DNA from: Gemmatimonadota bacterium
Lineage (GTDB): Bacteria; 4572-55; J002
Reading direction: 5' to 3'
Length of the DNA stretch: 44,729 nucleotides
Assembly (NCBI GenBank): GCA_003697105.1
Contig: RFFQ01000114.1
Coordinates: 1-44,729, forward strand
The notes beneath the pieces are model-generated. The model saw only the letters and a list, made by a program, of their open reading frames with translations. It made no database searches and was not told the origin of the DNA. Below are positions 29,557-44,729 of the stretch, one piece after another. The stretch's first letter is position 1. The number at the start of each line of letters is the position of its first letter. The position numbers and the translations under genes are program-made.

Positions 29557-30456
29557 TTATAGTTGGTTGATGTATAACGGCTTATACCCTGAGTACACTT
29601 TTTCATAGTAATTGAACACGATGATCTCGGTCTTTTTACCGACAGCAATATTAATGATGCACCGGTCGAGAATTTTGCGAATCATCAAGGTGCCGCGGCC
29701 GCTAATATCTTCCATTCCCGCGCCACTAATTTGCCGGTCTAGCGCTTCTAACAGCCGTTGTTTAGAGGTAGAGCCGCTGGAGTCAATCACTGAAACCCCA
29801 TATTTTTCATTATCTTTGCCGTAGTTGACTTCTACCACTTCATGATCTTCCAACGTAATATCACTACCCTTTTCATATTTTTGAGAGCCATCTGGATTGA
29901 CCGGTGCATGCCAAATCGCATTGGAAATCAGTTCATCGAGTGCCAACCGGCACAGCATTGGTTTTTCCGGTTGAAGATAGGCTTCGATGGCGTCGATGGT
30001 TTCAAGCATATCCTGATGAGTCCGAATCCGGCGTTTGATAATGGGGGTTCCCTCGGTCAGATAGTTCTCCAACCCAAACACCCGTTCCCCCGTGATCAGG
30101 TTTTCTACGGTGTGGATCACTTCTTCGACATTAAATGGATCGGTTTTGGTAATGATATTTCCAATATCATGTTCTTTTGCCAACCGGATGTAATTTTCGA
30201 CTTCATAGCTGGTCATCAATGCTGTTCGCACATTGGGTACTTGCTTTTTGATTTCCAATAGCGTACTAATCCCATCCCGACCGGGCATGTTGATGTCGCT
30301 AATGACTAAATCCGGCTGAAATTCACCGGCCAGTGCGATGCCTTCATCTCCGGTGCTGGCAGTTTTCACCTCATACTCATCATTTAAAAAATACGCCATC
30401 ATTTCTTGAATGAGTGATGAGTCATCAATGATCAAAATTCGTCCTTTTTTACTCAT
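29557..30456 (-). CDS. Response regulator with RsbW-like HATPase domain (REC-HATPase)
   Basis: The 299-residue protein has an N-terminal receiver domain (residues ~5-120): acid pair D11/D12, phospho-acceptor D54 in ISDINMPG and K104. The C-terminal half is an RsbW/SpoIIAB-like ATPase: N-box LALDELISNAIWHA (171-184), VIDSSG (~223-228) and GRGTLMIRKILD (~253-264). Such domains act as anti-sigma or protein kinases in partner switching. Fusing it to a receiver suggests phosphorylation by the histidine kinase encoded divergently controls the switch. Its ATG 30456 has GAGGG nearby upstream and a good promoter at 30507-30535. No STAS or sigma factor partner lies in the window. Confidence 0.87.
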   Translation of the reverse strand: MSKKGRILIIDDSSLIQEMMAYFLNDEYEVKTASTGDEGIALAGEFQPDLVISDINMPGRDGISTLLEIKKQVPNVRTALMTSYEVENYIRLAKEHDIGNIITKTDPFNVEEVIHTVENLITGERVFGLENYLTEGTPIIKRRIRTHQDMLETIDAIEAYLQPEKPMLCRLALDELISNAIWHAPVNPDGSQKYEKGSDITLEDHEVVEVNYGKDNEKYGVSVIDSSGSTSKQRLLEALDRQISGAGMEDISGRGTLMIRKILDRCIINIAVGKKTEIIVFNYYEKVYSGYKPLYINQL

Positions 30457-30506
30457 AATCCCTCTATCCGGTAAACACTAAATCCCCTCTCGACAATGGA
30501 TTTTAT

Positions 30507-30535
30507 ATTTTAGCATGTTTTTCGTTAAAAGACAA
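30507..30535 (-). promoter_or_regulatory. Promoter for REC-HATPase gene
   Basis: On the minus strand a -35 TTGTCT (complement of 30530-30535) and a -10 TAAAAT (complement of 30507-30512) are spaced by 17 bases. That leaves about 45 bases of leader before ATG 30456. Confidence 0.65.
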
Positions 30536-30576
30536 TTATATTTTTTCAGTAGGAGGCTCGTTTCCCTGAAAATTTA

Positions 30577-30643
30577 TCTGGGTAGCCGGGGAGATACCCT
30601 TATTTACTGGATAGATTTGTCTGGATAATGGGGGTATTACCCT
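30577..30643. repeat. Pair of imperfect 24-base direct repeats (possible operators)
   Basis: 30577-30600 and 30620-30643 match at 17 of 24 positions in the same orientation, sharing TCTGG at the left, GGGG in the middle and TACCCT at the right. Their starts are 43 bases apart, about four helical turns. Each contains a GGGTA/TACCC dyad (30580-30599 and 30632-30642). They lie just upstream of the -35 at 30667, where an activator or repressor would bind. Confidence 0.45.
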
Positions 30644-30666
30644 ACTGCCTTCTCCATGATTTTATG

Positions 30667-30695
30667 TTGACACGTCTCTCTTTTTATGGTATGGT
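30667..30695 (+). promoter_or_regulatory. Promoter for sensing operon
   Basis: A perfect -35 TTGACA (30667-30672) is followed after 17 bases by TATGGT (30690-30695), 4 of 6 bases of the -10 consensus. A weak -10 after operator-like repeats suggests an activator-dependent promoter. The expected leader before ATG 30767 is about 65 bases. Confidence 0.6.
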
Positions 30696-30766
30696 TATCA
30701 CTGGTTTTGATAGGTACTTACTGTACTTTTCAGCCTGACATCTCCAAAGTTATTAAAGGATATGAA

Positions 30767-31714
30767 ATGCCAGCTAACCCCATCCGAATTCTTCCTGTAT
30801 TTCTATTTTCTATTTGTTTTATTTTCGGTGCGATTCCGGTCAGCGCCGAGGTGGCGGTCATTTTAAGCCGGGATGATTTTGAACCGTATCAGGAAGCGCG
30901 TCAGGGGTTTGAAGAAACATGCACGGCGCCCACAAAAGTGTTTGCCTTTGAAGTAGAAAATCGGGAAACCCGGCAATACAAGCAACGTTCCATTGATGAG
31001 GCGTTAAATTATATCCAAAAGGGAAACCCCGAGCTAATTTGTGCGATAGGTACACAGGCATTTTTAGCCGTGCTTCAGGTTGCTCCCGCACAAATCCCCA
31101 TTGTTGCCGCAATGGTCAAATCCCCAGAGCAGTTAATCCAAGATTCCCTCGCGACGGGTCACACGATTTATGCCGTTGATTTTTTTGTTAGCTCGGATAT
31201 CGTCATGGAAACCATCCGATCGACCTATCCTGAACTGAAATCCATTGGAATCATTTATTATGAAACCTCCCAATCCCTAGTGGATGAACTTCGAGCCGAA
31301 GCGGATACCCGAAATTTGCAGGTGATTGCGGAAGTGGCGGATGGGAATAATCCCTTGCCAGCGCTCCGAAATGTGAGTACCTCCGCCGATTTGTTTTTGA
31401 TTATCGATAATGCTATGATCGGTGGTTCGGCATTTGATGTGTTATTGGGTTTTCAGAAACCGATTATTAGCTTGATTCATAATCCCCGGATGGTGCGGAA
31501 AGGTGCTCTATTTGGGTTTTTACTGCAATCCCGTGAAAACGGGCGTGCGGTGGGTCAAATCGCCAATACCATTTTAGCGGGTGGGAAGGTAACACCCCCT
31601 TTTCCCAAGATGACAAAAGCCGCACTGGCGGTGAATCAAAAAGTTCGTGATTTATTGAATGTTCCAGTACCAAATAATTTTGATATTCTTGAAAAATATA
31701 ACACCATTGAATAG
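30767..31714 (+). CDS. Periplasmic ABC-type substrate-binding protein (ABC_sub_bind/TrpX-like), likely sensor input
   Basis: This is a 315-residue protein with signal peptide (MPANPIRILPVFLFSICFIF, cleavage near VSA-EVAV). The two-lobed binding-protein pattern follows: AVILSRDDFEPYQEARQGF, LICAIGTQAFLAV, IPIVAAMV, KSIGIIYYETSQSLVDELR, and LFLIIDNAMI. It belongs to the COG2984-type family. No permease or ATPase is nearby, while a membrane histidine kinase starts 5 bases after its stop, so it probably presents a ligand to that kinase. ATG 30767 is chosen because AAAGGA stands seven bases before it and it gives a clean signal peptide; the frame extends back to 30686 but that region overlaps the promoter. 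Confidence 0.82.
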   Translation: MPANPIRILPVFLFSICFIFGAIPVSAEVAVILSRDDFEPYQEARQGFEETCTAPTKVFAFEVENRETRQYKQRSIDEALNYIQKGNPELICAIGTQAFLAVLQVAPAQIPIVAAMVKSPEQLIQDSLATGHTIYAVDFFVSSDIVMETIRSTYPELKSIGIIYYETSQSLVDELRAEADTRNLQVIAEVADGNNPLPALRNVSTSADLFLIIDNAMIGGSAFDVLLGFQKPIISLIHNPRMVRKGALFGFLLQSRENGRAVGQIANTILAGGKVTPPFPKMTKAALAVNQKVRDLLNVPVPNNFDILEKYNTIE

Positions 31715-31719
31715 TTCTT

Positions 31720-33378
31720 ATGAATCTCACATTTGAGCAAAAAGTTGTTTTACTCCTGAGTATCACACCGGTTCTGTTCGTCGTGTTTTCAATGATGTAT
31801 GTTGTCAACACGAAATCAACACTCACCCGGCAGGAAGTAGAAAGCGGTAAGATTCTGGCAAAAACCTTTGCAAAAAATGCGACCTTCGGCACCTTGCTGC
31901 AAGAACCCAATAAATTGGAAACCCCTTTTAGGGATTATCTGGAAGAGCCGTCGGTCGTGGCTGTTGCCGTATTCATGGTAGATACGGGCGAACAATTAGC
32001 CGCGGCGATTGATAGCACCTTGTTGCTGTCGCCTTCCGTCCGGGCGGATATTCCCTTCTCTGAGATTGTGGAACGCCTAGAAAGCCGGGTGGATGATGTG
32101 GTCGTTGATGCGTCCGGTTCGGATGTCATCTACTTTTATACACCTATTTTCAACCGGCAGGTGGTCCATGTAACGGAAGATGCGTTTGGGTGGGAAGACG
32201 AACTGAATGTGGAAGAGCAAGAGGTGCTTTTTGCCGTTGCGGAGATGGGTATCACGTTGGACCGGGTGAAGCGTTCCTTTAATCAAAACTTGATCTTTGT
32301 CGCCATAATGACTATTGTGTTTCTTGTTGCGGGGGTTGTCATCATGCGTTATATTTTTGCCCAATGGCGCCAGCGTACCGATGAACTTCAGGAGGCTATT
32401 ACCCGCTCCAAAGAAGCCGAAGACCAAATCCGCAAAGCTTATAAAGAACTTGAACACAAAAGCCGGCAGTTTGAAAAAGCCAACGAAGACCTGTTGCAAG
32501 CCCAATTAGAGACCATTAAACAACGTTCCCAATTAGTCGAAAGTGAACGCTTAGCAACGTTAGGTGAGCTTTCCGGGATGGTTGCTCATGAAATCAATAA
32601 TGCTTTAAGCGGTATCAGTGGTCCCATCGACCATATTCTGAATATGAAACCCATCGACGAGGAAAAAATATGGTACTGCTGGGAATCCGATCAAGATGGA
32701 CACGAACTCCAAGCCTATCTGGAAGAATGGAATCAAAACTGGAATAGCCTGATCGAAGCGGCTCGCCTGATTGAAACTGCCGGAAAACGGGCGCGAACAA
32801 CCGTCAGAAACTTGCAAGGCTTGGTGGGAGGTCGTAGCCGCCAATATGGCACCGTGGATGTATGCGAAGTCTTTCGGGAAAGCTACAGCCTGCAAAAACA
32901 CCGCGAAGAACTTCAGGCGGTAAAACTGATCGAAAAATTTGAAGAAGAGGAGATGAAGATTATCTCCACCAGTGGGGAATTGGGGCAAATTTTTACCAAC
33001 ATGCTAATTAATGCCGGGCACGCCTTAGTGGGTCGTCCCGATCCAACGATAACCGTTGAAATCCGGCATAAAGATAATGGCATCGAGATTTTGTTTAGCG
33101 ATAACGGAAAAGGGATGCCCTTTGAAGTGCGTACGCAAGTTTTTAAACCCTTTTTCACCTATGGTAAGGGCGAAAAAGGCACCGGTTTAGGGCTTTCAAC
33201 CGTGGATCGAATTGTAAAGGCGCATGGCGGTAAAATCCATGTGGAAAGCGAAGAAGGAAAAGGAACGACCTTTATTATGTGGTTTCCGTATGAAAGACCT
33301 AAAAATACAGAAAAAGATGATGCGACTGAAACCAACGTAGAACCCCGTGAGGAAAAGGAGCAGAACATTAATGGCTGA
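31720..33378 (+). CDS. Membrane sensor histidine kinase
   Basis: This 552-residue kinase has TM1 (~7-28), a periplasmic domain (~30-188) and TM2 (~190-213). A coiled coil (~215-280) then leads to the dimerisation helix with H290 in VAHEINNALSG. A long insert of about 45 residues lies between the H-box and the conserved arginine helix (TAGKRARTTVRNL). The ATPase has N-box QIFTNMLINAGHAL (~423-436), G1 DNGKGMP (~460-466) and G2 GTGLGLS (~487-493). The two neighbouring receivers (encoded at 33371-35110 and 29557-30456) are probable phosphotransfer partners. Its end overlaps the next gene by 8 bases. Confidence 0.92.
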   Translation: MNLTFEQKVVLLLSITPVLFVVFSMMYVVNTKSTLTRQEVESGKILAKTFAKNATFGTLLQEPNKLETPFRDYLEEPSVVAVAVFMVDTGEQLAAAIDSTLLLSPSVRADIPFSEIVERLESRVDDVVVDASGSDVIYFYTPIFNRQVVHVTEDAFGWEDELNVEEQEVLFAVAEMGITLDRVKRSFNQNLIFVAIMTIVFLVAGVVIMRYIFAQWRQRTDELQEAITRSKEAEDQIRKAYKELEHKSRQFEKANEDLLQAQLETIKQRSQLVESERLATLGELSGMVAHEINNALSGISGPIDHILNMKPIDEEKIWYCWESDQDGHELQAYLEEWNQNWNSLIEAARLIETAGKRARTTVRNLQGLVGGRSRQYGTVDVCEVFRESYSLQKHREELQAVKLIEKFEEEEMKIISTSGELGQIFTNMLINAGHALVGRPDPTITVEIRHKDNGIEILFSDNGKGMPFEVRTQVFKPFFTYGKGEKGTGLGLSTVDRIVKAHGGKIHVESEEGKGTTFIMWFPYERPKNTEKDDATETNVEPREEKEQNING

Positions 33379-35110
33379 TGAAGGACGTCGTAGAATACGA
33401 CCCGGACGGGTCCGCCCAAGTGGAGCACCTCAAAGCCGTGGAACTGAATCGCCAACTTCCAAAAAGTTTGGTCAGCGGTTCAGCGATAAAAAATTACCGG
33501 CATATAAGGGTACGGTCTTGCTAGTAGATGATGATGACCTGGTCCGCGGCTCGATGCGAATGTCGTTACAAGGTGAGTATCAGATTCTGGAAGCCAACGA
33601 TGGTTTTCAAGGGCTAGATGTTCTCAAAGAACATCTGGCTCAAATCGATTGTGTGGTGACCGATATTCGGATGCCCGGCTTGAACGGTTCCGAATATATG
33701 TCACGCGCCGCGGAAATCACAAAAGAAGTCTATTTTATTGTGGTAACCGGTCACAAAGGTGAAGTCACAGAATCCAAATTGATCGGTGATGGTGGCGGTC
33801 GCCTGAGCGGTTTTCTGGAAAAACCCGTTACCAGTGATGAACTCAAATATCAAATCGATAAAGCTATTGAACTCACCCGTAACCAGCGGGACCGCATTCG
33901 TGCCAATGATAACGCTCACAAGCTGGTACAAAGCGTGGAAAATATCTATAGCATCAAAAGTTTGGAAGATTTGCTCGCTGCTATCTTTGAAAATGTCGCT
34001 ATTTTTAGCTCGGTGCGGACGGGTTTTCTGGCGTTCTCCAGTGATTCCTCAGAAAATGATTATGTTGTGCGGGGTGGCGTCGGTCGATTTGCGGAAATGA
34101 TCGGCGAATCCATCGTCGAAAATCCAAAACTCAGAAAACACGAAGTCGAACTGCTCGTAAAAGCCGTCAAAGAAGACCGAATCCACGAAACCGATGAGGT
34201 GATGGTGCTTCCCCTGAAACGGGGCGGCTTGCTCCTGATCGGACAACCCTCGGTCGATGAGCGGGATAAAGATTTTATCCGTACCTACGCCCGAAATGCC
34301 GAAAAAGCCATTGAAAATGTCTTTTATTACCATGAATTGGAAGAAAAGAAGCGATTAGAACAAGAACTGAAGATCGCAGCGGAAATTCAGACCTCCTTGT
34401 TGCCGAAAAAACAACCGGAACTAGAAGATATTGAAGTGCTCGGATTTCAACTGCCCGCAAAAGAGGTCGGAGGGGATTACTACGACTTCATTGAGATGGG
34501 TGAAGGCAGCCTCGCGGTGTGTATCGGCGATGTGAGCGGTAAGGGTGTCCCCGCCGGGCTGGTCATGGTCATGGCACGGAGCTACCTGCAAATCCTAATG
34601 GGTAAGGATAGCGAAGGTCATGTGGTAGAAATTCCCTCTCTGGCAACCGTCCTAAACAAAATCAACCGGGTCTTGCATAAAGATGTTGAATCCACCCGGT
34701 TTATGACCATGTTACTTTCCGTGTGGGATGCCCATAAAAAGGTGTTGCGCTATGTCGGCGCCGGGCATGAACGGTTGATCGTTTATCGCGAAGCAACCCG
34801 AACGTGCGAACTCATCAAACCCGGCGGCGTGATGTTGGGAATGCTGGATGATGTGGAAGATTTCCTGACCGATCAGGAACTAGAACTTGCCCCCGGCGAT
34901 ACCGTTGTTCTGTACACGGATGGTGTCACCGAAGCCCGCTCCAAAGCCGATAAACTGTTCGGGATGGATGCGCTGATTGCCTCCATTGAGAAACACGCCA
35001 GCGATAATGTCCACTCACTAATTGAAGGCGTCCGGGAAGACTTGCGGGAGTTCATGCTCGGTGAGATTCAGTACGATGATATTACGCTGGTGGCATTACG
35101 CCGTAAATGA
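33371..35110 (+). CDS. Response regulator with SpoIIE-type PP2C phosphatase output (REC-GAF-like-PP2C)
   Basis: A 579-residue protein. A basic, disordered N-terminus of about 45 residues precedes the receiver (~46-170; phospho-acceptor D98 in VVTDIRMPG, Lys in FLEKPVT). A GAF-like middle (~185-325) and a coiled-coil linker follow, then the SpoIIE/PP2C domain (~345-579). The metal-binding acids are in EVGGDYYDF, CIGDVSGKGVPAG, LYTDGVTEA and YDDITLV. Such proteins dephosphorylate a STAS-domain antagonist and so free it to bind an RsbW-type kinase; the REC-HATPase protein encoded divergently is the candidate opposing enzyme. ATG 33371, with GGAG upstream, is preferred to an in-frame ATG at 33347 inside the histidine kinase gene. 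Confidence 0.92.
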   Translation: MADEGRRRIRPGRVRPSGAPQSRGTESPTSKKFGQRFSDKKLPAYKGTVLLVDDDDLVRGSMRMSLQGEYQILEANDGFQGLDVLKEHLAQIDCVVTDIRMPGLNGSEYMSRAAEITKEVYFIVVTGHKGEVTESKLIGDGGGRLSGFLEKPVTSDELKYQIDKAIELTRNQRDRIRANDNAHKLVQSVENIYSIKSLEDLLAAIFENVAIFSSVRTGFLAFSSDSSENDYVVRGGVGRFAEMIGESIVENPKLRKHEVELLVKAVKEDRIHETDEVMVLPLKRGGLLLIGQPSVDERDKDFIRTYARNAEKAIENVFYYHELEEKKRLEQELKIAAEIQTSLLPKKQPELEDIEVLGFQLPAKEVGGDYYDFIEMGEGSLAVCIGDVSGKGVPAGLVMVMARSYLQILMGKDSEGHVVEIPSLATVLNKINRVLHKDVESTRFMTMLLSVWDAHKKVLRYVGAGHERLIVYREATRTCELIKPGGVMLGMLDDVEDFLTDQELELAPGDTVVLYTDGVTEARSKADKLFGMDALIASIEKHASDNVHSLIEGVREDLREFMLGEIQYDDITLVALRRK

Positions 35111-35269: not shown

Positions 35270-35587
35270 TTAGCGCGGATTGACTATCAGTTCCCCATTG
35301 GAAAGCGACGCCGCAAATTTATCCACATTTTTCGGGAGATTTGCCGACGGGACAATTTCCACAATGATTTCTTCCTGATCATTGGTTTTATCCACATACC
35401 ACTTAGCGTTGATTTTCAGGGTCAGGGACGACGGGCGACCGGTGCGCTCCGTGTTTTCGACAATCTCACGAATCCCTTTCACCACAATATCATTCATCAC
35501 TTTCAGAATCTTCTCATCCGAAAGGGTGTGTGAAGGACGTTCTTCTGCCGCCGTTTCCGCGCCAACCGTTACTTTGGTTTCGTCCAT
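35270..35587 (-). CDS. Conserved-looking small protein of unknown function
   Basis: A 105-residue protein I do not recognise. The first ~25 residues are acidic and low-complexity (ETAAEERPS). The rest alternates helix (DEKILKVMNDIVVKGIREIVENTERTG) and beta strands (SSLTLKINAKWYVD, then EEIIVEIVPSANLP). No membrane helix or cysteine is present. The start is ATG 35587 with GGAGG upstream; an in-frame TTG at 35599 overlaps that ribosome site. It has its own promoter (35647-35676) and terminator, so it is a monocistronic gene. Its place between the signalling island and the reductase fusion does not indicate a function; a small regulator is possible but unproven. Confidence 0.75.
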   Translation of the reverse strand: MDETKVTVGAETAAEERPSHTLSDEKILKVMNDIVVKGIREIVENTERTGRPSSLTLKINAKWYVDKTNDQEEIIVEIVPSANLPKNVDKFAASLSNGELIVNPR

Positions 35588-35646
35588 CCTATCCTCCAAG
35601 ACAAAATGTTGAAATAAAATGAATTAATAGCAGGTGACGGGAAAAT

Positions 35647-35760: not shown

Positions 35761-35859
35761 ATATCTATTTACGTTCTACTTGAATAAACACCGTGTTTCC
35801 ATACCCCCGGATCGCGTTTTATGCTCGGCGGTGCCATCTTTAGTTGAAGGAGTTACCCT

Positions 35860-38187
35860 ATGCCTCGTCCCGGGACGAAAGATAATCCATTGCGCGTGGC
35901 CATTATTGGTGCGGGACCCGCCGGTTTTTTCACGGCGGAGCACTTATTTAAACAACCGGATTTGAATGTTGAAATCGATATGTTTGAGCGACTGCCAACC
36001 CCCTATGGGCTGGTGCGTGCGGGTGTTGCTCCTGATCATCAAAAGATCAAATCCATTACCAAAAATTTTGACCGGATTGCCGGAAACCCCAATTTCCGGT
36101 ATTACGGCTACGTGGAATTCGGTAAAGATATTTCCATGGCGGATATTCGCCAGCACTACCATCAAGTGGTGATTGCCACCGGTGCCCAGACAGACCGCCA
36201 GTTGCGAATTCCGGGCGAAGAATTGGAAGGTTGTCACGGTGCGACCGAGTTTGTCGCATGGTACAACGGGCATCCCGATTACCGGGAATGCCGTTTTGAC
36301 CTCTCGCAGGAACGTGTGGCTATAATTGGGGTCGGCAATGTGGCACTGGACGTTGCTCGCATCCTCTGCCGGACTCCAGAAGAATTGGAAGTGACCGACA
36401 TCGCGGATTATGCGCTAGATGCCTTACGCCAAAGCCACGTACGCGAAGTTTACCTACTCGGACGGCGCGGCGTGGCACAAGCGGCATTTACCAATGCCGA
36501 AATTAAAGAGATGGGCGAACTCTCTGATTGTGATGTGCTTGCCCGGACAGATGAAGTTGAACTCGATCCGGCTTCCGCTGCCGCCATTGCAGACGATAAA
36601 AAGGCACTCCGAAAAGTGGAAATTGTGCAAGGCTATGCCCAACAGTCGCCGCGTGGTAAGTCCCGCCGGCTGTTTTTGCGATTTTTGATCTCTCCCGTGG
36701 AAATTTTAGGGGATGAACAGGGGCGGGTTTGTGGAATGCAACTGGTCAGAAATGAACTGTACCAAACCAAAAGTGGGACATTGCATGCCCGTCCCACTGA
36801 CCTGTTTGAGGATTTAGATGTCGGGCTGATTTTCCGTTCGGTGGGTTACCGGGGTGTCCCCTTGCCCGGCGTAGAATTTAACAATAGTTGGGGCACGATT
36901 CCGCATCAAAATGGACGTGTTATCGGGATGTACACCCACCAACCGGTCTTGGGTGTTTATACGACCGGCTGGATCAAACGGGGACCCTCCGGTGTGATCG
37001 GCACCAACAAAGGGGATGCCAAGGAAACCGTCGAGCAGATGATGCAGGATTTGCAAAGTGGGATGGTTTTACAGCCGGAAAAGCCAGACCGGGACGCCGT
37101 CGAAGCCTTAATCCGGGAACGGCAACCCAATGTGTTTACTTACACCGATTGGCTGCGGCTGAACGAAATTGAGGTTGTCAACGGGCAAAAATTGGGACGC
37201 CCGCGCCTCAAATTAACCACGATCCCCACTATGCTCAGTGCCTTAGAGCGCGAGCATGTCAGTGGTGCCCGCAAGAAAATATTGTTACCCACGGATTTTT
37301 CCCGCAGTGCGGAGCAAGCGCTCATTCATGCCGTGCATCTAGCAAAACGGTATGAGGCGGAAATTCATCTGCTGAATGTGATCGTCTTTCATGATGATGA
37401 CCCGTTTCATCCGGGGCAACACATGGAAAACAGCTCCGATATCTTGAACAAATTGAAACAACTGGGCGCGGAAAAACTCGATGAAATATCCACCGCTTAC
37501 ACAGCGCCGGATCAGCGGTATGAACTGAAAAAAGTGCAACAGCGGGGTGATTCTGTGGATGGTACTATCCTAAAATATGCGGAGGAAGAAGATATCGATT
37601 TAATCGTGATGGGCACGCATGGGCGCCGGGGTATAAACCAGTTGGTGATTGGTAGTATTGCCGATAAAATCGTCCGGTTAGCCCCCTGCCCGGTGATGAC
37701 CGTGCTGGAACAGAAAACAATCGCTCATGAAACCATCCGCCAGATTTTAGTACCGATTGATTTTTCCAACTATTCCCGGCTGGCGCTAACCCACGCCAAA
37801 AAAATTGCGGCGGATTATAATGCTCGTCTCCAACTCCTCCATGTGGTGCAGGAGGTGATACGACCCACCTTTTACTATGCTTCGGATCACCCACCCGCAC
37901 TGCAATTTACCCCACAACTGGCGGAACGGGCAACACAAGCCATGCAGGACATGCTGGAAGGTACGGTTGGCATCAATCCAGAAGCGGAATTTTTCGTTAC
38001 GGAGGGACATCCTCGCACCGAAATTCTGGATTTTGCAGACCGGCATCACTCGGATTTGATTGTCATCGCCACTCACGGCTTATCCGGTTTTGAAAATCTA
38101 CTGTTAGGAAGTACCACCGGCATGGTCGTCCGGCGGGCAAAGTGCCCGGTGTTTACGGTGAAGGCGTTTGGTAAACATTTTATCTAG
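35860..38187 (+). CDS. Ferredoxin/adrenodoxin-type NADP reductase fused to two universal stress protein domains
   Basis: A 775-residue fusion. Residues ~1-460 form an FprA/adrenodoxin-reductase-like flavoprotein. It shows FAD motif IIGAGPAGFFTAEHL (~10-24), PTPYGLVRAGVAPDH, NADPH motif IIGVGNVALDVARIL (~155-169), LLGRRG, and C-terminal GWIKRGPSGVIGTNKGDA (~371-388). Residues ~468-620 and ~625-775 are two UspA domains, each starting ILLPTDFS/ILVPIDFS. Each ends with the ATP-binding GTHGRRG-x-G-type motif (GTHG ~585, ATHG ~735, followed by GS). The usual FprA is about 450 residues and ends where the Usp part begins. It passes electrons between NADPH and a ferredoxin; the Usp domains may sense ATP/AMP or stress and tune that flow (inference). 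GAAGGAG precedes ATG 35860. Confidence 0.93.
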   Translation: MPRPGTKDNPLRVAIIGAGPAGFFTAEHLFKQPDLNVEIDMFERLPTPYGLVRAGVAPDHQKIKSITKNFDRIAGNPNFRYYGYVEFGKDISMADIRQHYHQVVIATGAQTDRQLRIPGEELEGCHGATEFVAWYNGHPDYRECRFDLSQERVAIIGVGNVALDVARILCRTPEELEVTDIADYALDALRQSHVREVYLLGRRGVAQAAFTNAEIKEMGELSDCDVLARTDEVELDPASAAAIADDKKALRKVEIVQGYAQQSPRGKSRRLFLRFLISPVEILGDEQGRVCGMQLVRNELYQTKSGTLHARPTDLFEDLDVGLIFRSVGYRGVPLPGVEFNNSWGTIPHQNGRVIGMYTHQPVLGVYTTGWIKRGPSGVIGTNKGDAKETVEQMMQDLQSGMVLQPEKPDRDAVEALIRERQPNVFTYTDWLRLNEIEVVNGQKLGRPRLKLTTIPTMLSALEREHVSGARKKILLPTDFSRSAEQALIHAVHLAKRYEAEIHLLNVIVFHDDDPFHPGQHMENSSDILNKLKQLGAEKLDEISTAYTAPDQRYELKKVQQRGDSVDGTILKYAEEEDIDLIVMGTHGRRGINQLVIGSIADKIVRLAPCPVMTVLEQKTIAHETIRQILVPIDFSNYSRLALTHAKKIAADYNARLQLLHVVQEVIRPTFYYASDHPPALQFTPQLAERATQAMQDMLEGTVGINPEAEFFVTEGHPRTEILDFADRHHSDLIVIATHGLSGFENLLLGSTTGMVVRRAKCPVFTVKAFGKHFI

Positions 38188-38277: not shown

Positions 38278-38649
38278 ATGGCAAATGTAATCAATTGGTT
38301 TGAAATTCCGGTCGATGATCTGGATCGGGCGGCGGCATTTTATGAGGCTATTTTTGAGTACGACTCCATGTACCGCATGGAAATGGGTGGGGGGCAGATG
38401 GCATTTTTCCCGATGGAGGGCGAAGGTGTTGGCGGCGCACTGACCCAACATGAGATGATGCGCCCCTCCCCCCACGGGGTATTGGTGTATCTCAACGCGG
38501 GTGATGACCTCGCCCCGATTTTAGGACGCGTGGAAGATGCCGGTGGGAAAATTGTCATGCCTAAAACACAAGTCACAGAGGAGATTGGTTATATCGCTAT
38601 GTTTATCGATACGGAAGGTAACCGGATCGGGTTACATTCGCCGCATTAA
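38278..38649 (+). CDS. VOC-family protein (glyoxalase/bleomycin-resistance fold)
   Basis: The 123-residue protein has two beta-alpha-beta-beta-beta units: VINWFEIPVDDLDRAAAFYEAIF at the start, VLVYLNAGDDLAPILGRVEDAGGKIVMP in the middle and GYIAMFIDTEGNRIGLHS at the end. The final E of the usual metal site is replaced by H in LHS. Members bind metal and small molecules; substrate unknown. It begins 90 bases after the reductase gene with AAAGGGG before ATG 38278 and ends before a strong terminator. It may share a transcript with the reductase; only a weak hairpin lies between. Confidence 0.88.
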   Translation: MANVINWFEIPVDDLDRAAAFYEAIFEYDSMYRMEMGGGQMAFFPMEGEGVGGALTQHEMMRPSPHGVLVYLNAGDDLAPILGRVEDAGGKIVMPKTQVTEEIGYIAMFIDTEGNRIGLHSPH

Positions 38650-38676
38650 ACAGCACTTTCTCCTCAACGAATAGTG

Positions 38677-38711
38677 CCCGTCCGAGATGATTTTTCTCGG
38701 GCGGGTTTTTT
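38677..38711 (+). terminator. Intrinsic terminator after the VOC gene
   Basis: An 11-base stem (38677-38687 with 38695-38705, one G-T pair) and 7-base loop followed by six Ts. Confidence 0.88.
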
Positions 38712-38844: not shown

Positions 38845-41800
38845 ATGCTAACGCACATTGATAATCGCTACCGTATTACCAAGTTTCTGGGGGAAGGGGC
38901 GATGGGTAAGGTTTATCTGGTGGAAGATGAACTCAAAGACCATCGCCAAATGGCATTAAAGACCATCCGCACGTCGATTTCCGGCACCGACCTCATCCGT
39001 CACCTAAAAAACGAATTCCAATTGCTGGCACACCTGTGCCATCCTAACCTGTGTGAGGTTTACGATTTTGGTTTTTGGCGCGGGGATGAAGGCTCGTCCG
39101 CCTTTTTGGATGCCGATGATGGGGTCGAAAACGGCATCTATTATTTCACGATGGAATACATCGACGGTTCGGATTTCCTCACCGCGACAGAACATCTCAC
39201 CGAATTTGAGCTGTACCCTCTCATTGTGCAGGTCTGCCAAGCGCTCAGCTATATCCACAGCCGCAATTTTATCCATTATGACATCAAACCGAGTAACGTC
39301 TGGGTCACTCGTGAGGGTAAGATCAAACTCATGGACTTAGGACTTGCCCGCGAGCAAGAAGTTGGTTCCAACATGCGTCTTAGGGGCACGGTCAACTACA
39401 TCGCGCCGGAGATTATTCGCGGCGATCCGGTCGATCCCCGTGCGGATTTGTACTCGCTCGGGGTGATGCTCTATCAGGTGGTTGCCCATGAACTCCCTTT
39501 TTCGGCTCCGTCCTCGGTGGAAGTGTTGAAAAAGCATGTCAGTGAATATCCGGTCAAATTGACCCTTAAAGTGCCGGGAGTCTCCCCAGAGCTTTCCCAA
39601 CTGGTGATGCGCCTGTTGCAAAAACATCCCATGGATCGCTTTACCTCCGCCAATGCGCTCCTGCGTATCCTGTGTGATATGGCGCATATTGACTGCGAGG
39701 AAAGCAGTGTCGAACTGCGCACCTCCTATATTCTCAGTAGTAAATTTGTCGGGCGAGAGGCGGAATTTGATCGCTTAAAAACCGCTTTGGAACAAATTCA
39801 AAACAAAAATATAACCCAGTTTTTCCTGATCAGTGGCGCGGCGGGCATTGGTAAATCTCACCTGATGCGGGAGTTCCGCTACCACACCCAATTAAACGGT
39901 GTGACCCTAATCGAAGGCAATTGCTACACGGAAGGCTCACAAGCGTACCAACCATTCCACGATATTTTGAAAACCCTAGTACGCCAATCTCGCCCCGAAA
40001 CCCTTGGAAAATATGGTTCAGAACTGGTTAAACTGATTCCCGATGTAAAAACCATCATTGAGATAGAACCCTCCCCAGAATTGAATGCGGAAGAGGAGCA
40101 GACCCGGCTGATCCGCGAAATTACCGCCTTTATTTTTGATATTGCGACTCGCAAGCCGCTGGTACTTTATATCAATGATTTACACTGGGCGGATACTTCC
40201 ACGCTCCAATTGGTTCAGGCATTGGTACGCACGGCGGAATTGAAATTGGAAAAAGGGAAAGCACCACATCTGCTGATCTGCGCCTCCTACTGTACCGAAG
40301 GCGCTTCAGATGACCAATTTGATCACTTGTGTGCAGAGTTGCAACGGTCGCCCCACATTTGCCAGCAGATCAACCTGCCGGGACTGCCGGCAGAGGCGGT
40401 GGCGGCAATGGTGGAATCCATGTTTGGCTTTAAGAACCTACCGGCGGTGTTTTTGGAAAAAATCGTGAAGGAGACCGACGGAAATCCCTTTTTTGTGGAA
40501 GAAATGATGAAGTCCATGCTGGAAGTGGGTATTTTGACCCAAGCGGACGATCAATGGCAGGTGGATGTGGCAAAACTGGATCAACTGGAACTCCCCAAGA
40601 CTGTTGCCGCGGCCCTCCAACGGCGGTTAGCCACCCTTTCGCCGGAGAAACGCACCTTCCTAAGCCTCTTCTCCGTAATTGGACGACCGGTTTCGCTACG
40701 CGGAATCGAAATGCTGATGGCGGCATTTGACCCCCATCTCAAAGGGGAACAACTGGCGGAACTGCTGCAATCCTTACAACGCCAAAATCTGATCAAATTT
40801 GGGAATGGCTTTTATTCGATTTCACATCAGCAGATTATGTCCTTGCTGGTAACCGAAATTCCGGCGGCAGAACGCCCCCGCTATCACCGTATCGCCGCCG
40901 AAACTTTGGAAAAATTGCATCCCAACGGTGACGAATTCATCGAGGAGTTGGCGATCCATAGTTACCGCGGCGAACTCTGGGGGCGTGCCCTGCGCTACTC
41001 GATCCTCGCAGGAGATAAAAACCGCGCGATTTACTCCAATCACACCGCCATTGATTTTTACCAGAATGCTTTGGAGATTCTCAAGCGGGATGAGTTTCGG
41101 AATCGGGAGCAGGAACGCCATATCTACCGCCAATTAAGCCATCTATACGATTTAACGGGACAGGTGGACCAGCGGCTACACGTACTAAATGTTTGGCTGG
41201 AAGCCACCTCATCCAATATCGAAAAAGCCGAAATTCTGGAGATGTTGGCAAAATCCTATGAGGTGATCAAGGATGATTACGATCGAGCGCTGAAATATAC
41301 GCAGGAAGGGCTGGAGTGGGTCAAAAATGAACCGGTTTGCCCGGAAATCGCTAATTTGTATCAGCGAATGGGAAGTATCCACCAAACAAAAGGGGACTAT
41401 TCGTCGGCAATTGAATATTTTGAAAAAAGTTTGCGTATCTTTCAGGAATTGGAAGACCAACTCGGTGAAGCCCGGATGTCCCGCAATTTGGGCACCATCT
41501 ACCGCTTAAAAGGCGATTATCCCACCGCCCAAACCTTTTATGAAACCAGTTTGAAAATTGCCGAAGCCTCCGAATCCCTAAAAGAAAAAGAATTAACCTA
41601 CCGCGCATTAGGAACACTCTATTTTTACTGGCAAGATTATGACCGCGCCCTCGGATACTATCACAAAGGGTACAAAATTGTGGAAGATATGGACGATGTG
41701 TACGGTCAAGCCAGCTATTTTAATAATTTGGGAGGTGTCCACCGCGTCAAAGGGGAGCAAGAAAAAGCACTGGAGTACTACCAAAAAAGTTTGGATATTT

Positions 41801-44729
41801 ACAAAGAGATCGGCGTCGCTCGGGGCGTGAGTGTGCTGTACAATAATATAGGACTGCTCTACCTGAACCAAAGCAAGTATGAGCAAGCGTTGGATTATTA
41901 CTTCCGCAGTTTAGAAATTAGCCAGCGGATCGGGCATCTGGAAAGCCAAGCGGCCGCCCTGAATAATGTCGGGATCATTTACCGGGTGCTCAAAAACTAT
42001 GATAAAGCGGTGGAATACTATCAAAAAAGCTTGACCATCAGCACTAAATTGGGTGATCTGCGCAGTGTGAGCGAGCTATACTTTAACATGGCAGAGATGT
42101 ATCACCGGCGAAATCAACTGGATACCGCACGCCAACTCTATGAAAAAGCGTTTGAAGTCGGGAAAGATGTTGATGATTTGCCCACTACCGCCGACTGCCT
42201 GACCAGCATCGCGGGGATTTACCGGACACAAGGCGCCTTTTCCACCGCGATGGAATATGTGGAGCAGGCATTATCGTATCTGGAACACTCCGAAAATTAT
42301 GAAAGTAAGGAATCTTGCCTGAACGAACTGGCACGAATTCATTTGTGGCAAGGGGACTACGCACAGGCTGTTGCCGTGATGGAAAAAGCTCTCAAACTGC
42401 GCCCGGATGCCTCCGATTGGGAACGGACGGAAATTTTTACCGGTGCGGGCGATTTGTACCGGATACTCAATCAGGTGGCAAAAAGCCAATTTTACTACCA
42501 AAAGGCGCTCGATGCCCACCAAGCCGCAAATGAGAAGGAAGGCTCCGGTACATGCTTTGCCGGACTGGGCAAACTCGCCTTATTGCAAAAAAAGTACGAT
42601 CTGGCAGAGGATTTTTACCAAAAAGCCCTCTCACCGGAACTTAGTATTTTAGATGAAGATGAAGAAATTCAGACGAAAATTGATTTAGCTCGATTGTATC
42701 TGGAACAAGATCAATTGGATCAGGCAGACCGGTTACTGGTGGAGACCATGCAACAAACCGATGACCTCACCCCGCCTCGTGTCATTTGCGAAATTTATGT
42801 CCTAAAAAGCCTGATTTTAGCTAAACAGTTGGCTACCGAAGGCATTTTGCTGGATAAAGCCCTGACCCTTAGTTCAGACATCAAATTTGCCGAGGCAAAA
42901 TGGATGCTCTTCCGGGATTTTGCCGTCTATTTTAATGAAAAAGGGGATACGACCTCCACGGATCACTACCTGAATGAAGCGAAAGCCATTATCAAACGCT
43001 TGGGAGCGTCCCTAAATGACCGTGTGGCGGAGAAAACATACTTCAACCAGCGCTACCGGCGAAGTGTGCTGGTGCAACTGATCCGGCAAAAGGCGGATGT
43101 ACCGGATCAGGCTCATTTTACCGAGGGTGAAACCGAAACCCTGAACGAATTTGAACAGGAATTGCAAGATTTACGCGCCTTTTTGCGCAGTGATGCCCCC
43201 TCAGCAGAAACCAAACTCAAATATGTTTCCTCCAAGCTCAGCGTCTGGACCCGCATGACCCGGGCAATTAAAAATATCCAAAACCACTCTGACCGGAACC
43301 CCTATTTTTCCGAACTGATGAAGACCACCCGAATGCTAGTCCGCATGACCGATGATTACAGTAAACTACTGGAAATCATCCAAATTTTAAACAGTAGCCT
43401 GATTTTGGATGATCTGCTCATTAAAATTGTCGATCTGGCGATTGATTTTGCCCAATCGGATAGCGGCTCTATTATGTTGTATAACCCCGATGGGGATTTG
43501 GAAATCCGGGTTGCACGAGACCGCTGGCAACAGCATCTTACCGGTGAAATTTATCCGTTTTCGTGGACGATTGTCGATCAGGTCATCTCCTCTAAAGAAC
43601 CGGTATGTGTGACGGATATAGTTGAAAATAAAGAACTTCAGATGCATGATAGTATTGCTGATATTGGTTTGCAGTCCGTCATGTGTTTGCCTTTACGGCG
43701 ACGCTTGCTCAAGACGAATGATGAAGACCAGACCGGTGAAGTGCAAGATAATCTGCTGGGTGTCCTCTATCTGGACATCTACACCCATCAATTACACGAG
43801 GAAAGCCGTTTTTCCGAGGAAAATATAAATCTACTACAAACTTTGGCAGATCAAGCCTCCATTGCGTTGATCAACGCCAGTTTATACGAAAAAACCAACT
43901 CCGACCGCCTCACCCGCCTCTATTTGCGCCCCTATTTTGAGGAGATGCTCAAGATTGAACTCAATCTAGCCAAGAAGCATGATCAGCCACTATCGATTCT
44001 CAAGATTGATATCAACGGTTCCAAAGCGATGAACCGGATTCACGGGCGAGAAGCCGGAGACCGCGTTTTGGAAGAAATCGCCCAGATTCTCAAACATTCC
44101 GTCTCCTCGACCGATTTGTGTGCCCGCTACGGCGGGGATGAGTTTGCCATCCTATTGCCGAATACGGATCGGGCACAAGCACAACAGGTTGCCAGTAAAA
44201 TTTTGGAGACCATCAAGCATTACGCTTTTTCCTGCCCGGATGTGAGTGTCGGGCTGGGGATTGCCGGTTTTCCCTTCACCGGTACCATTGCCGATCAGTT
44301 GCAGTTACAGGCGGAGCAAGCGATCTTCATCGCTAAAAGCCGGGGGCTCAATCAGATGGCTGTCTGGGAAGAAAGCGCCTTGACCGATTGGAAGGACCAG
44401 GATCATGTCCCTGATATTTTAACCGGAGACCCGATTCGGGATTATCAAAATGTGAAAATGCTTCTTGAAGCCATTGAGGTGGCAAATTCGACGCTGGATA
44501 TGGACAAATTGCTGATCCGGATCGTCGATATTATCTTGAAGATCACCAACGCGGAGCGGTGTATCTTGATGCTGGCGGAGGATGGGCAACCGCTAAAAGT
44601 TCGGGTGGCGCGAAATTTTGAGGGCGAAAATATACAGGTGGAAGGCACTTATAGCTTGAGTATCCCAGAACAAGTTTACCAGCAAGGGGACCCGATCTCA
44701 TTGAATGAGAGCGGTGACATCAGTTTTAC
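38845..44729 (+). CDS. Giant Ser/Thr kinase-AAA ATPase-TPR-GAF-GGDEF-GAF signalling protein (partial at window end)
   Basis: The frame runs open from ATG 38845 to the window end (1961 residues seen). Kinase: P-loop GEGAMGKVY (~17-25), K39, HYDIKPSN (144-151, Tyr in place of Arg, so non-RD), DLG (164-166) and APE (187-189). AAA-type ATPase: Walker A GAAGIGKS (331-338), Walker B LVLYINDLHWAD (~438-449). TPR array from ~770 to ~1300, with AIEYFEKSL- and ALEYYQKSL-like repeats. GAF ~1512-1680. GGDEF ~1682-1842 with intact GGDEF (1763-1767), but the inhibitory site reads SSTD and lacks the R of RxxD. A second GAF starts ~1871. It could phosphorylate proteins in response to scaffolded inputs and make cyclic-di-GMP. 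It has no transmembrane segment. AGGAG precedes the start. Confidence 0.9.
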   Translation, partial: MLTHIDNRYRITKFLGEGAMGKVYLVEDELKDHRQMALKTIRTSISGTDLIRHLKNEFQLLAHLCHPNLCEVYDFGFWRGDEGSSAFLDADDGVENGIYYFTMEYIDGSDFLTATEHLTEFELYPLIVQVCQALSYIHSRNFIHYDIKPSNVWVTREGKIKLMDLGLAREQEVGSNMRLRGTVNYIAPEIIRGDPVDPRADLYSLGVMLYQVVAHELPFSAPSSVEVLKKHVSEYPVKLTLKVPGVSPELSQLVMRLLQKHPMDRFTSANALLRILCDMAHIDCEESSVELRTSYILSSKFVGREAEFDRLKTALEQIQNKNITQFFLISGAAGIGKSHLMREFRYHTQLNGVTLIEGNCYTEGSQAYQPFHDILKTLVRQSRPETLGKYGSELVKLIPDVKTIIEIEPSPELNAEEEQTRLIREITAFIFDIATRKPLVLYINDLHWADTSTLQLVQALVRTAELKLEKGKAPHLLICASYCTEGASDDQFDHLCAELQRSPHICQQINLPGLPAEAVAAMVESMFGFKNLPAVFLEKIVKETDGNPFFVEEMMKSMLEVGILTQADDQWQVDVAKLDQLELPKTVAAALQRRLATLSPEKRTFLSLFSVIGRPVSLRGIEMLMAAFDPHLKGEQLAELLQSLQRQNLIKFGNGFYSISHQQIMSLLVTEIPAAERPRYHRIAAETLEKLHPNGDEFIEELAIHSYRGELWGRALRYSILAGDKNRAIYSNHTAIDFYQNALEILKRDEFRNREQERHIYRQLSHLYDLTGQVDQRLHVLNVWLEATSSNIEKAEILEMLAKSYEVIKDDYDRALKYTQEGLEWVKNEPVCPEIANLYQRMGSIHQTKGDYSSAIEYFEKSLRIFQELEDQLGEARMSRNLGTIYRLKGDYPTAQTFYETSLKIAEASESLKEKELTYRALGTLYFYWQDYDRALGYYHKGYKIVEDMDDVYGQASYFNNLGGVHRVKGEQEKALEYYQKSLDIYKEIGVARGVSVLYNNIGLLYLNQSKYEQALDYYFRSLEISQRIGHLESQAAALNNVGIIYRVLKNYDKAVEYYQKSLTISTKLGDLRSVSELYFNMAEMYHRRNQLDTARQLYEKAFEVGKDVDDLPTTADCLTSIAGIYRTQGAFSTAMEYVEQALSYLEHSENYESKESCLNELARIHLWQGDYAQAVAVMEKALKLRPDASDWERTEIFTGAGDLYRILNQVAKSQFYYQKALDAHQAANEKEGSGTCFAGLGKLALLQKKYDLAEDFYQKALSPELSILDEDEEIQTKIDLARLYLEQDQLDQADRLLVETMQQTDDLTPPRVICEIYVLKSLILAKQLATEGILLDKALTLSSDIKFAEAKWMLFRDFAVYFNEKGDTTSTDHYLNEAKAIIKRLGASLNDRVAEKTYFNQRYRRSVLVQLIRQKADVPDQAHFTEGETETLNEFEQELQDLRAFLRSDAPSAETKLKYVSSKLSVWTRMTRAIKNIQNHSDRNPYFSELMKTTRMLVRMTDDYSKLLEIIQILNSSLILDDLLIKIVDLAIDFAQSDSGSIMLYNPDGDLEIRVARDRWQQHLTGEIYPFSWTIVDQVISSKEPVCVTDIVENKELQMHDSIADIGLQSVMCLPLRRRLLKTNDEDQTGEVQDNLLGVLYLDIYTHQLHEESRFSEENINLLQTLADQASIALINASLYEKTNSDRLTRLYLRPYFEEMLKIELNLAKKHDQPLSILKIDINGSKAMNRIHGREAGDRVLEEIAQILKHSVSSTDLCARYGGDEFAILLPNTDRAQAQQVASKILETIKHYAFSCPDVSVGLGIAGFPFTGTIADQLQLQAEQAIFIAKSRGLNQMAVWEESALTDWKDQDHVPDILTGDPIRDYQNVKMLLEAIEVANSTLDMDKLLIRIVDIILKITNAERCILMLAEDGQPLKVRVARNFEGENIQVEGTYSLSIPEQVYQQGDPISLNESGDISF

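Follow-up and report, generated by a model that had tools for sequence, protein, structure and literature searches.

Among described systems, M. tuberculosis FprA (1lqt, 1lqu) and bovine adrenodoxin reductase (1cjc) share with the gene reported here the whole reductase domain, including the FAD and NADP segments, the His/Glu pair and GRRG; both end at about 456-460 residues without a Usp module, unlike the fusion. Usp domains are very widespread and their targets are mostly unknown; Usps commonly dimerise and act by protein contacts. The tandem Usp Rv2623 of M. tuberculosis (3cis) has the same fold as the C-terminal part of the fusion (TM about 0.79), with a complete motif in domain 1, but it is free-standing and carries the motif in both domains, whereas the second Usp domain of the fusion has Ala for the first Gly. 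KdpD likewise contains a Usp domain that serves as the ligand-binding module of a larger protein (PMC8214093); it differs in being a kinase with a single Usp domain and with c-di-AMP as the ligand. Here we analyse a window of 44,729 nucleotides, which is the whole stretch of DNA under study, from a bacterium of a sparsely sampled lineage, in whose assembly no 16S sequence was found. It contains a real, in-frame combination of these two families, which is apparently unique: the parts are known, and the combination of domains is new.

The fusion gene and its domains

The fusion gene is a single uninterrupted frame, from an ATG at 35860 to a stop ending at 38187 (Table 1). The initial annotation had described it as a complete FprA-type enzyme joined to two Usp domains, and this description holds, with exact coordinates, one frame of 775 codons and matches to Pfam and 1lqt. 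The two halves are joined in frame: the similarity to FprA stops at about residues 460-464 and Usp1 begins at 471. In free-standing FprA relatives the stop lies no more than a few codons away from the counterpart of residue 462-470, and the entry into Usp1 after the linker is the point where free-standing Usps begin. A frameshift or stop between the halves was considered and rejected, the frame being open throughout. Separate translation of the Usp part was likewise rejected: no Shine-Dalgarno-like sequence is seen upstream of Met458, so there is no sign of the Usp part being made on its own.

Table 1. Features of the fusion gene and its downstream neighbour (positions in the window)
Feature	Position	Strand	Basis
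Likely ribosome-binding site of the fusion gene, AAGGAG	35847..35852	+	sequence
Fusion gene, FprA-type NADPH:ferredoxin reductase with tandem Usp, 775 aa	35860..38187	+	Pfam, PDB sequence matches
FprA/adrenodoxin-reductase-type domain, residues 1-464	35860..37251	+	1lqt E 3e-114, kept residues, fold match
FAD dinucleotide-binding motif GAGPAG, residues 17-22	35908..35925	+	sequence, mapping on FprA
NADP-binding segment GVGNVALDVAR, residues 157-167	36328..36360	+	sequence, mapping on FprA
Linker of about 6 residues (465-470), at the stop position of free-standing relatives	37252..37269	+	comparison with relatives
Usp domain 1 (Usp1), residues 471-615, full ATP motif	37270..37704	+	Pfam PF00582
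Usp1 G-2X-G-9X-GS motif, GTHGRRGINQLVIGS, residues 585-599	37612..37656	+	sequence
Usp domain 2 (Usp2), residues 627-768	37738..38163	+	PF00582 second stretch; phmmer to 2pfs
Usp2 motif, ATHGLSGFENLLLGS, residues 737-751, Ala for first Gly	38068..38112	+	sequence
VOC/glyoxalase-fold protein, 90 bp downstream of the fusion gene	38278..38649	+	Pfam PF00903 E 5e-10
Stem-loop of 12 pairs with T run behind the VOC gene, terminator-like	38676..38706	+	1 found vs 1.0 expected in shuffles; suggestive only

In the reductase half, the alignment with M. tuberculosis FprA (1lqt, E 3e-114) is end to end over residues 10-459, with an identity of 46% (203 of 440 aligned positions), and adrenodoxin reductase (1cjc, E 2e-92) matches residues 7-460. 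The similarity to the FprA/adrenodoxin reductase family is thus of full length, over about 450 residues, and both the FAD and the NADP motifs are present. With the numbering fixed by PDB 2c7g, titled 'His57Gln mutant', the FprA residues H57, R199, R200, E211, E214, W359 and G366 correspond here to H60, R202, R203, E214, E217, W371 and G378. We take His57/Glu214 to be the active site and R199/R200 to serve the NADPH 2'-phosphate, as is assumed for the family; all four are kept here, the His/Glu pair as H60/E217 and the arginines of GRRG as R202/R203. Since these residues and the cofactor motifs are kept, the reductase half looks active judging from its sequence, and its activity would presumably be NADPH/ferredoxin exchange. 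Ferredoxin genes and a haem-copper terminal oxidase are present in the host genome.

The C-terminal half has two Usp stretches in Pfam, with 217 bits against a cut-off of 24 and a whole-protein E of 1.8e-64; the best stretch is 471-615, and the second, at 627-768, matches 2pfs by phmmer. Two domains above the Pfam cut-off, together with fold matches to 3cis and 3loq, place the pair among the tandem-type Usps (PF00582). Both domains keep an L1-type Asp (PTDFS in Usp1, PIDFS in Usp2). The initial annotation had assigned ATP-type glycine motifs to both domains, which is right for Usp1 and not for Usp2. Usp1 carries the G-2X-G-9X-G(S/T) motif in full together with the L1 Asp, as in the ATP-binding group of the MJ0577/Rv2623 type, while Usp2 departs from the motif and has Ala where Rv2623 has G117. 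In Rv2623, G117A lowers ATP binding and function (PMC2682197), and the equivalent change in SaUspA, G97A, weakens binding about 50-fold (PMC7693658). All related tandem Usps that we aligned have Ala or Thr at the first motif Gly; the Ala of Usp2 is therefore a trait of the subfamily rather than a sequencing error. We thus predict one likely nucleotide site, in Usp1, and one doubtful site, in Usp2.

An AlphaFold2 model was built from a 20-row alignment, with a mean pLDDT of 82.7 and a pTM of 0.61. In the model both modules fold as expected: Foldseek relates it to FprA 1lqu (TM 0.86, by target) and to the tandem Usps 3loq (TM 0.83) and Rv2623/3cis (TM about 0.79). The placement of the FprA module against the Usp module is not interpretable, because the pTM is moderate.

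The fusion gene and the VOC gene behind it are likely on one transcript, as read from the sequence, since no terminator-like site is found in the 90-bp gap between them and the candidate stem-loop follows the VOC gene. Farther downstream, a frame of more than 1961 aa (38845-44727, +) runs off the contig end, and its translation resembles a protein kinase that also has ATPase, TPR, GAF and GGDEF-like parts. Upstream lies a signalling cluster (29557-35110), which by Pfam includes a response regulator with HATPase (-), an ABC-type substrate-binding protein, a histidine kinase and a receiver-SpoIIE phosphatase. Between this cluster and the fusion gene is a 109-aa frame (35270-35599, -) without Pfam match.

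Occurrence of the fusion and gene neighbours of its relatives

All 115 other distinct FprA sequences that we read are free-standing, with lengths of 423-488 aa, which agrees with the initial annotation's remark that such enzymes usually end at about 450-460 residues; in the relatives the end is found near 460-470. Around the 80 nearest FprA loci in GTDB r220 genomes, all with free-standing FprA, no Usp sequence is present in the flanks, and by tblastn no Usp gene adjoins a free-standing fprA. FprA-only or Usp-only matches, and never both in one place, were obtained in 386 mixed genomes. The two are also not found together in the phyla of G086 (95 genomes), G332 (350), G363 (5), G077 (43) and G321 (82). 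Among plasmids, 0 of 502 matching records cover 80% of the fusion query, and a scan of viral contigs found nothing. Long frames around fprA at three loci (L170, L171, L176) were rejected as candidates, being free-standing FprA with overlapping or neighbouring frames and no Usp fusion. The architecture search that the initial annotation proposed has therefore brought up no second FprA-Usp-Usp protein among the 115 relatives, about 1,000 further genomes and plasmids, and literature searches on FprA with Usp found no paper. From this absence, the fusion is lineage-specific here and a single instance; it is rare and unique in our sample, and other proteomes could contain one.

Because the fusion is known from one instance, in an assembly of 199 contigs and with no independent copy found, an assembly or sequencing artefact has to be considered, that is, a chimeric join or a lost stop in a metagenome-type assembly. 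We regard it as very improbable. Both halves are complete and in the same frame, with only about 6 residues between them, and a chance join that spares both domains, keeps the frame and leaves no intergenic sequence is unlikely. In addition, the halves are alike in G+C content (0.53 and 0.50; 0.55 and 0.53 at the third position), in line with the neighbouring genes.

As to the origin of the halves, in the tree the reductase falls within a group of sequences from Chloroflexota, Rokubacteria and their allies; its identities do not exceed 66%, and no sister has strong support. The Usp half is closest, at 44-51% identity, to tandem Usps from the phylum of G321 (L136, L144-L149), in whose 82 genomes no FprA match was found at the threshold used. 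Most of these tandem Usps share with the fusion the C-terminal tail CPVFTVK.FGK; unlike the fusion, they are free-standing or receiver-fused, and none is joined to FprA. In two of them (L148, 1492-3060, -; and L149) a response-regulator receiver and a tandem Usp from the subfamily of the fused Usp pair form one protein, while L144 has separate receiver and Usp frames that overlap. A cytochrome c-type gene adjoins the Usp gene in L144, and a similar ORF with haem motifs occurs in L148. In L136 (495-3655) a free-standing tandem Usp lies between two rubrerythrin-family genes, next to an Fe/Mn superoxide dismutase gene. From the receiver-fused relatives and those flanked by rubrerythrin and superoxide dismutase genes, the Usp module appears to move between signalling and redox contexts. 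The initial annotation had held Usps to be normally free-standing or tandem; such forms are indeed seen, but the statement is too narrow in view of the receiver-Usp-Usp protein of L148 and of the multidomain proteins with Usp domains already known, namely KdpD, transporters and kinases (PMC8214093).

The genes around free-standing fprA were clustered, and CBS domains were then sought by profile search in loci with 500 bp or more of upstream sequence. The neighbour seen most often is a small CBS-pair protein (in L037, Pfam CBS E 1e-27), whose gene directly precedes fprA in the same orientation in 44 of the 115 loci (L037, L038, L043, L047, L054, L065, L087 and others). By group, this arrangement is found in 13 of 15 Rokubacteria, 15 of 32 Chloroflexota, 0 of 6 Gemmatimonadota and in single cases in other phyla; all remaining fprA flanks, about 750 kb, give only 8 other CBS matches. 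The trait undergoes 12 changes on the FprA tree of 85 tips, and thus the pairing recurs or is kept selectively. Within the window there is no CBS match, and accordingly no CBS-pair gene upstream of the fusion gene. Our literature searches found no description of the CBS-fprA pairing and no paper on FprA with CBS.

CBS pairs are adenine-nucleotide sensors. The CBS-pair protein of the relatives (L037, L038, L065 and others) therefore resembles the Usp pair of the fusion as an adenine-nucleotide-type sensor tied to the same reductase, but it is encoded by a separate gene, 5' of fprA, and its fold is unrelated to Usp. An enzyme may be controlled from such a neighbouring gene, as AMP-bound AcuB, a CBS protein, inhibits AcuC from the same operon (PMC13121692). 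By guilt by association, it is a natural inference that an adenine-nucleotide sensor often accompanies FprA in this clade, its place being filled here by the fused Usp pair; the CBS gene beside fprA in relatives thus makes energy control of the enzyme a testable idea.

Possible roles of the fused Usp pair

Our best reading, which we hold tentatively, is an NADPH:ferredoxin reductase with a built-in adenylate-responsive Usp module, replacing the CBS partner of the relatives. The FAD-containing reductase part would move electrons between NADPH and soluble ferredoxin, while the C-terminal tandem would fold as an intramolecular Usp pair and bind adenine nucleotide, mainly at the complete Usp1 site. 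The nucleotide-bound Usp may then change how active the reductase is, its oligomeric state or its contact with a partner; in this way NADPH/ferredoxin flow would track the adenylate state or stress, and the module would act in cis as the adjacent CBS-pair protein probably does in relatives. What we infer here is that nucleotide is bound, that the reductase is regulated and that Usp and CBS are equivalent. The intact reductase residues, the Usp1 motif, the fold matches, the CBS adjacency, and the ferredoxins and terminal oxidase of the host argue for this reading; the upstream CBS in 44 of 115 relatives gives indirect support to adenylate coupling. Precedents for it are the tandem Usp Rv2623, in which function is tied to ATP binding (PMC2682197), SaUspA, which binds and stimulates the enzyme PP2A and whose binding is strengthened by ATP (PMC7693658), and the control of an operon neighbour by AcuB. 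Against the reading, no second fusion is found, and hence no evolutionary conservation supports the function; Usp2 deviates from the ATP motif, and no Usp gene is seen beside free-standing fprA; the relation of CBS to FprA is one of gene order only, and the interdomain placement is uncertain (pTM 0.61).

The chief alternative, which we consider rather doubtful, gives the Usp pair a passive or scaffolding role: it would be a passive or protective appendage that stabilises the enzyme or tethers it to other Usps or to complexes formed under stress, with catalysis not under nucleotide control. This would fit the habit of Usps to dimerise and to work through protein contacts, and Usp2 lacks the first motif Gly. 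A scaffolding role is known for E. coli UspC in KdpDE (PMC8214093), and in the assay SaUspA gave the same stimulation of PP2A whether or not ATP was added (PMC7693658), which also counts against our best reading. Yet the full ATP motif in Usp1 and the L1-type Asp in both domains are at odds with a merely passive part, and the recurrent CBS neighbour of fprA points to a nucleotide-sensing partner. It is less probable still that the module senses another ligand, such as cAMP or c-di-AMP instead of ATP, ADP or AMP, and that control of the reductase runs through that ligand. Binding of cAMP is known for a Usp of M. tuberculosis (PMC11107214) and binding of c-di-AMP for the Usp domain of KdpD (PMC8214093), and a gene for a cNMP-binding protein recurs in 8 fprA loci; but the Usp1 motif belongs to the ATP-binding group, and the cNMP-binding genes can be placed only within these loci.

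The Usp pair is here fused to an enzyme with a simple spectrophotometric assay, which points to its probable target and opens the ligand question to direct test. The fusion and the CBS-fprA pairing together suggest that adenine nucleotides may tune FprA-type NADPH/ferredoxin exchange, of which no description was found in literature searches, and the pairing may perhaps be a more general lead than the fusion. It is possible, though we would not count it probable, that across the broad FprA clade energy charge gates NADPH/ferredoxin exchange via interchangeable sensors, usually a neighbouring CBS protein and here a fused Usp. If true, low-potential electron flow would be subject to an energy-charge switch of an undescribed kind.
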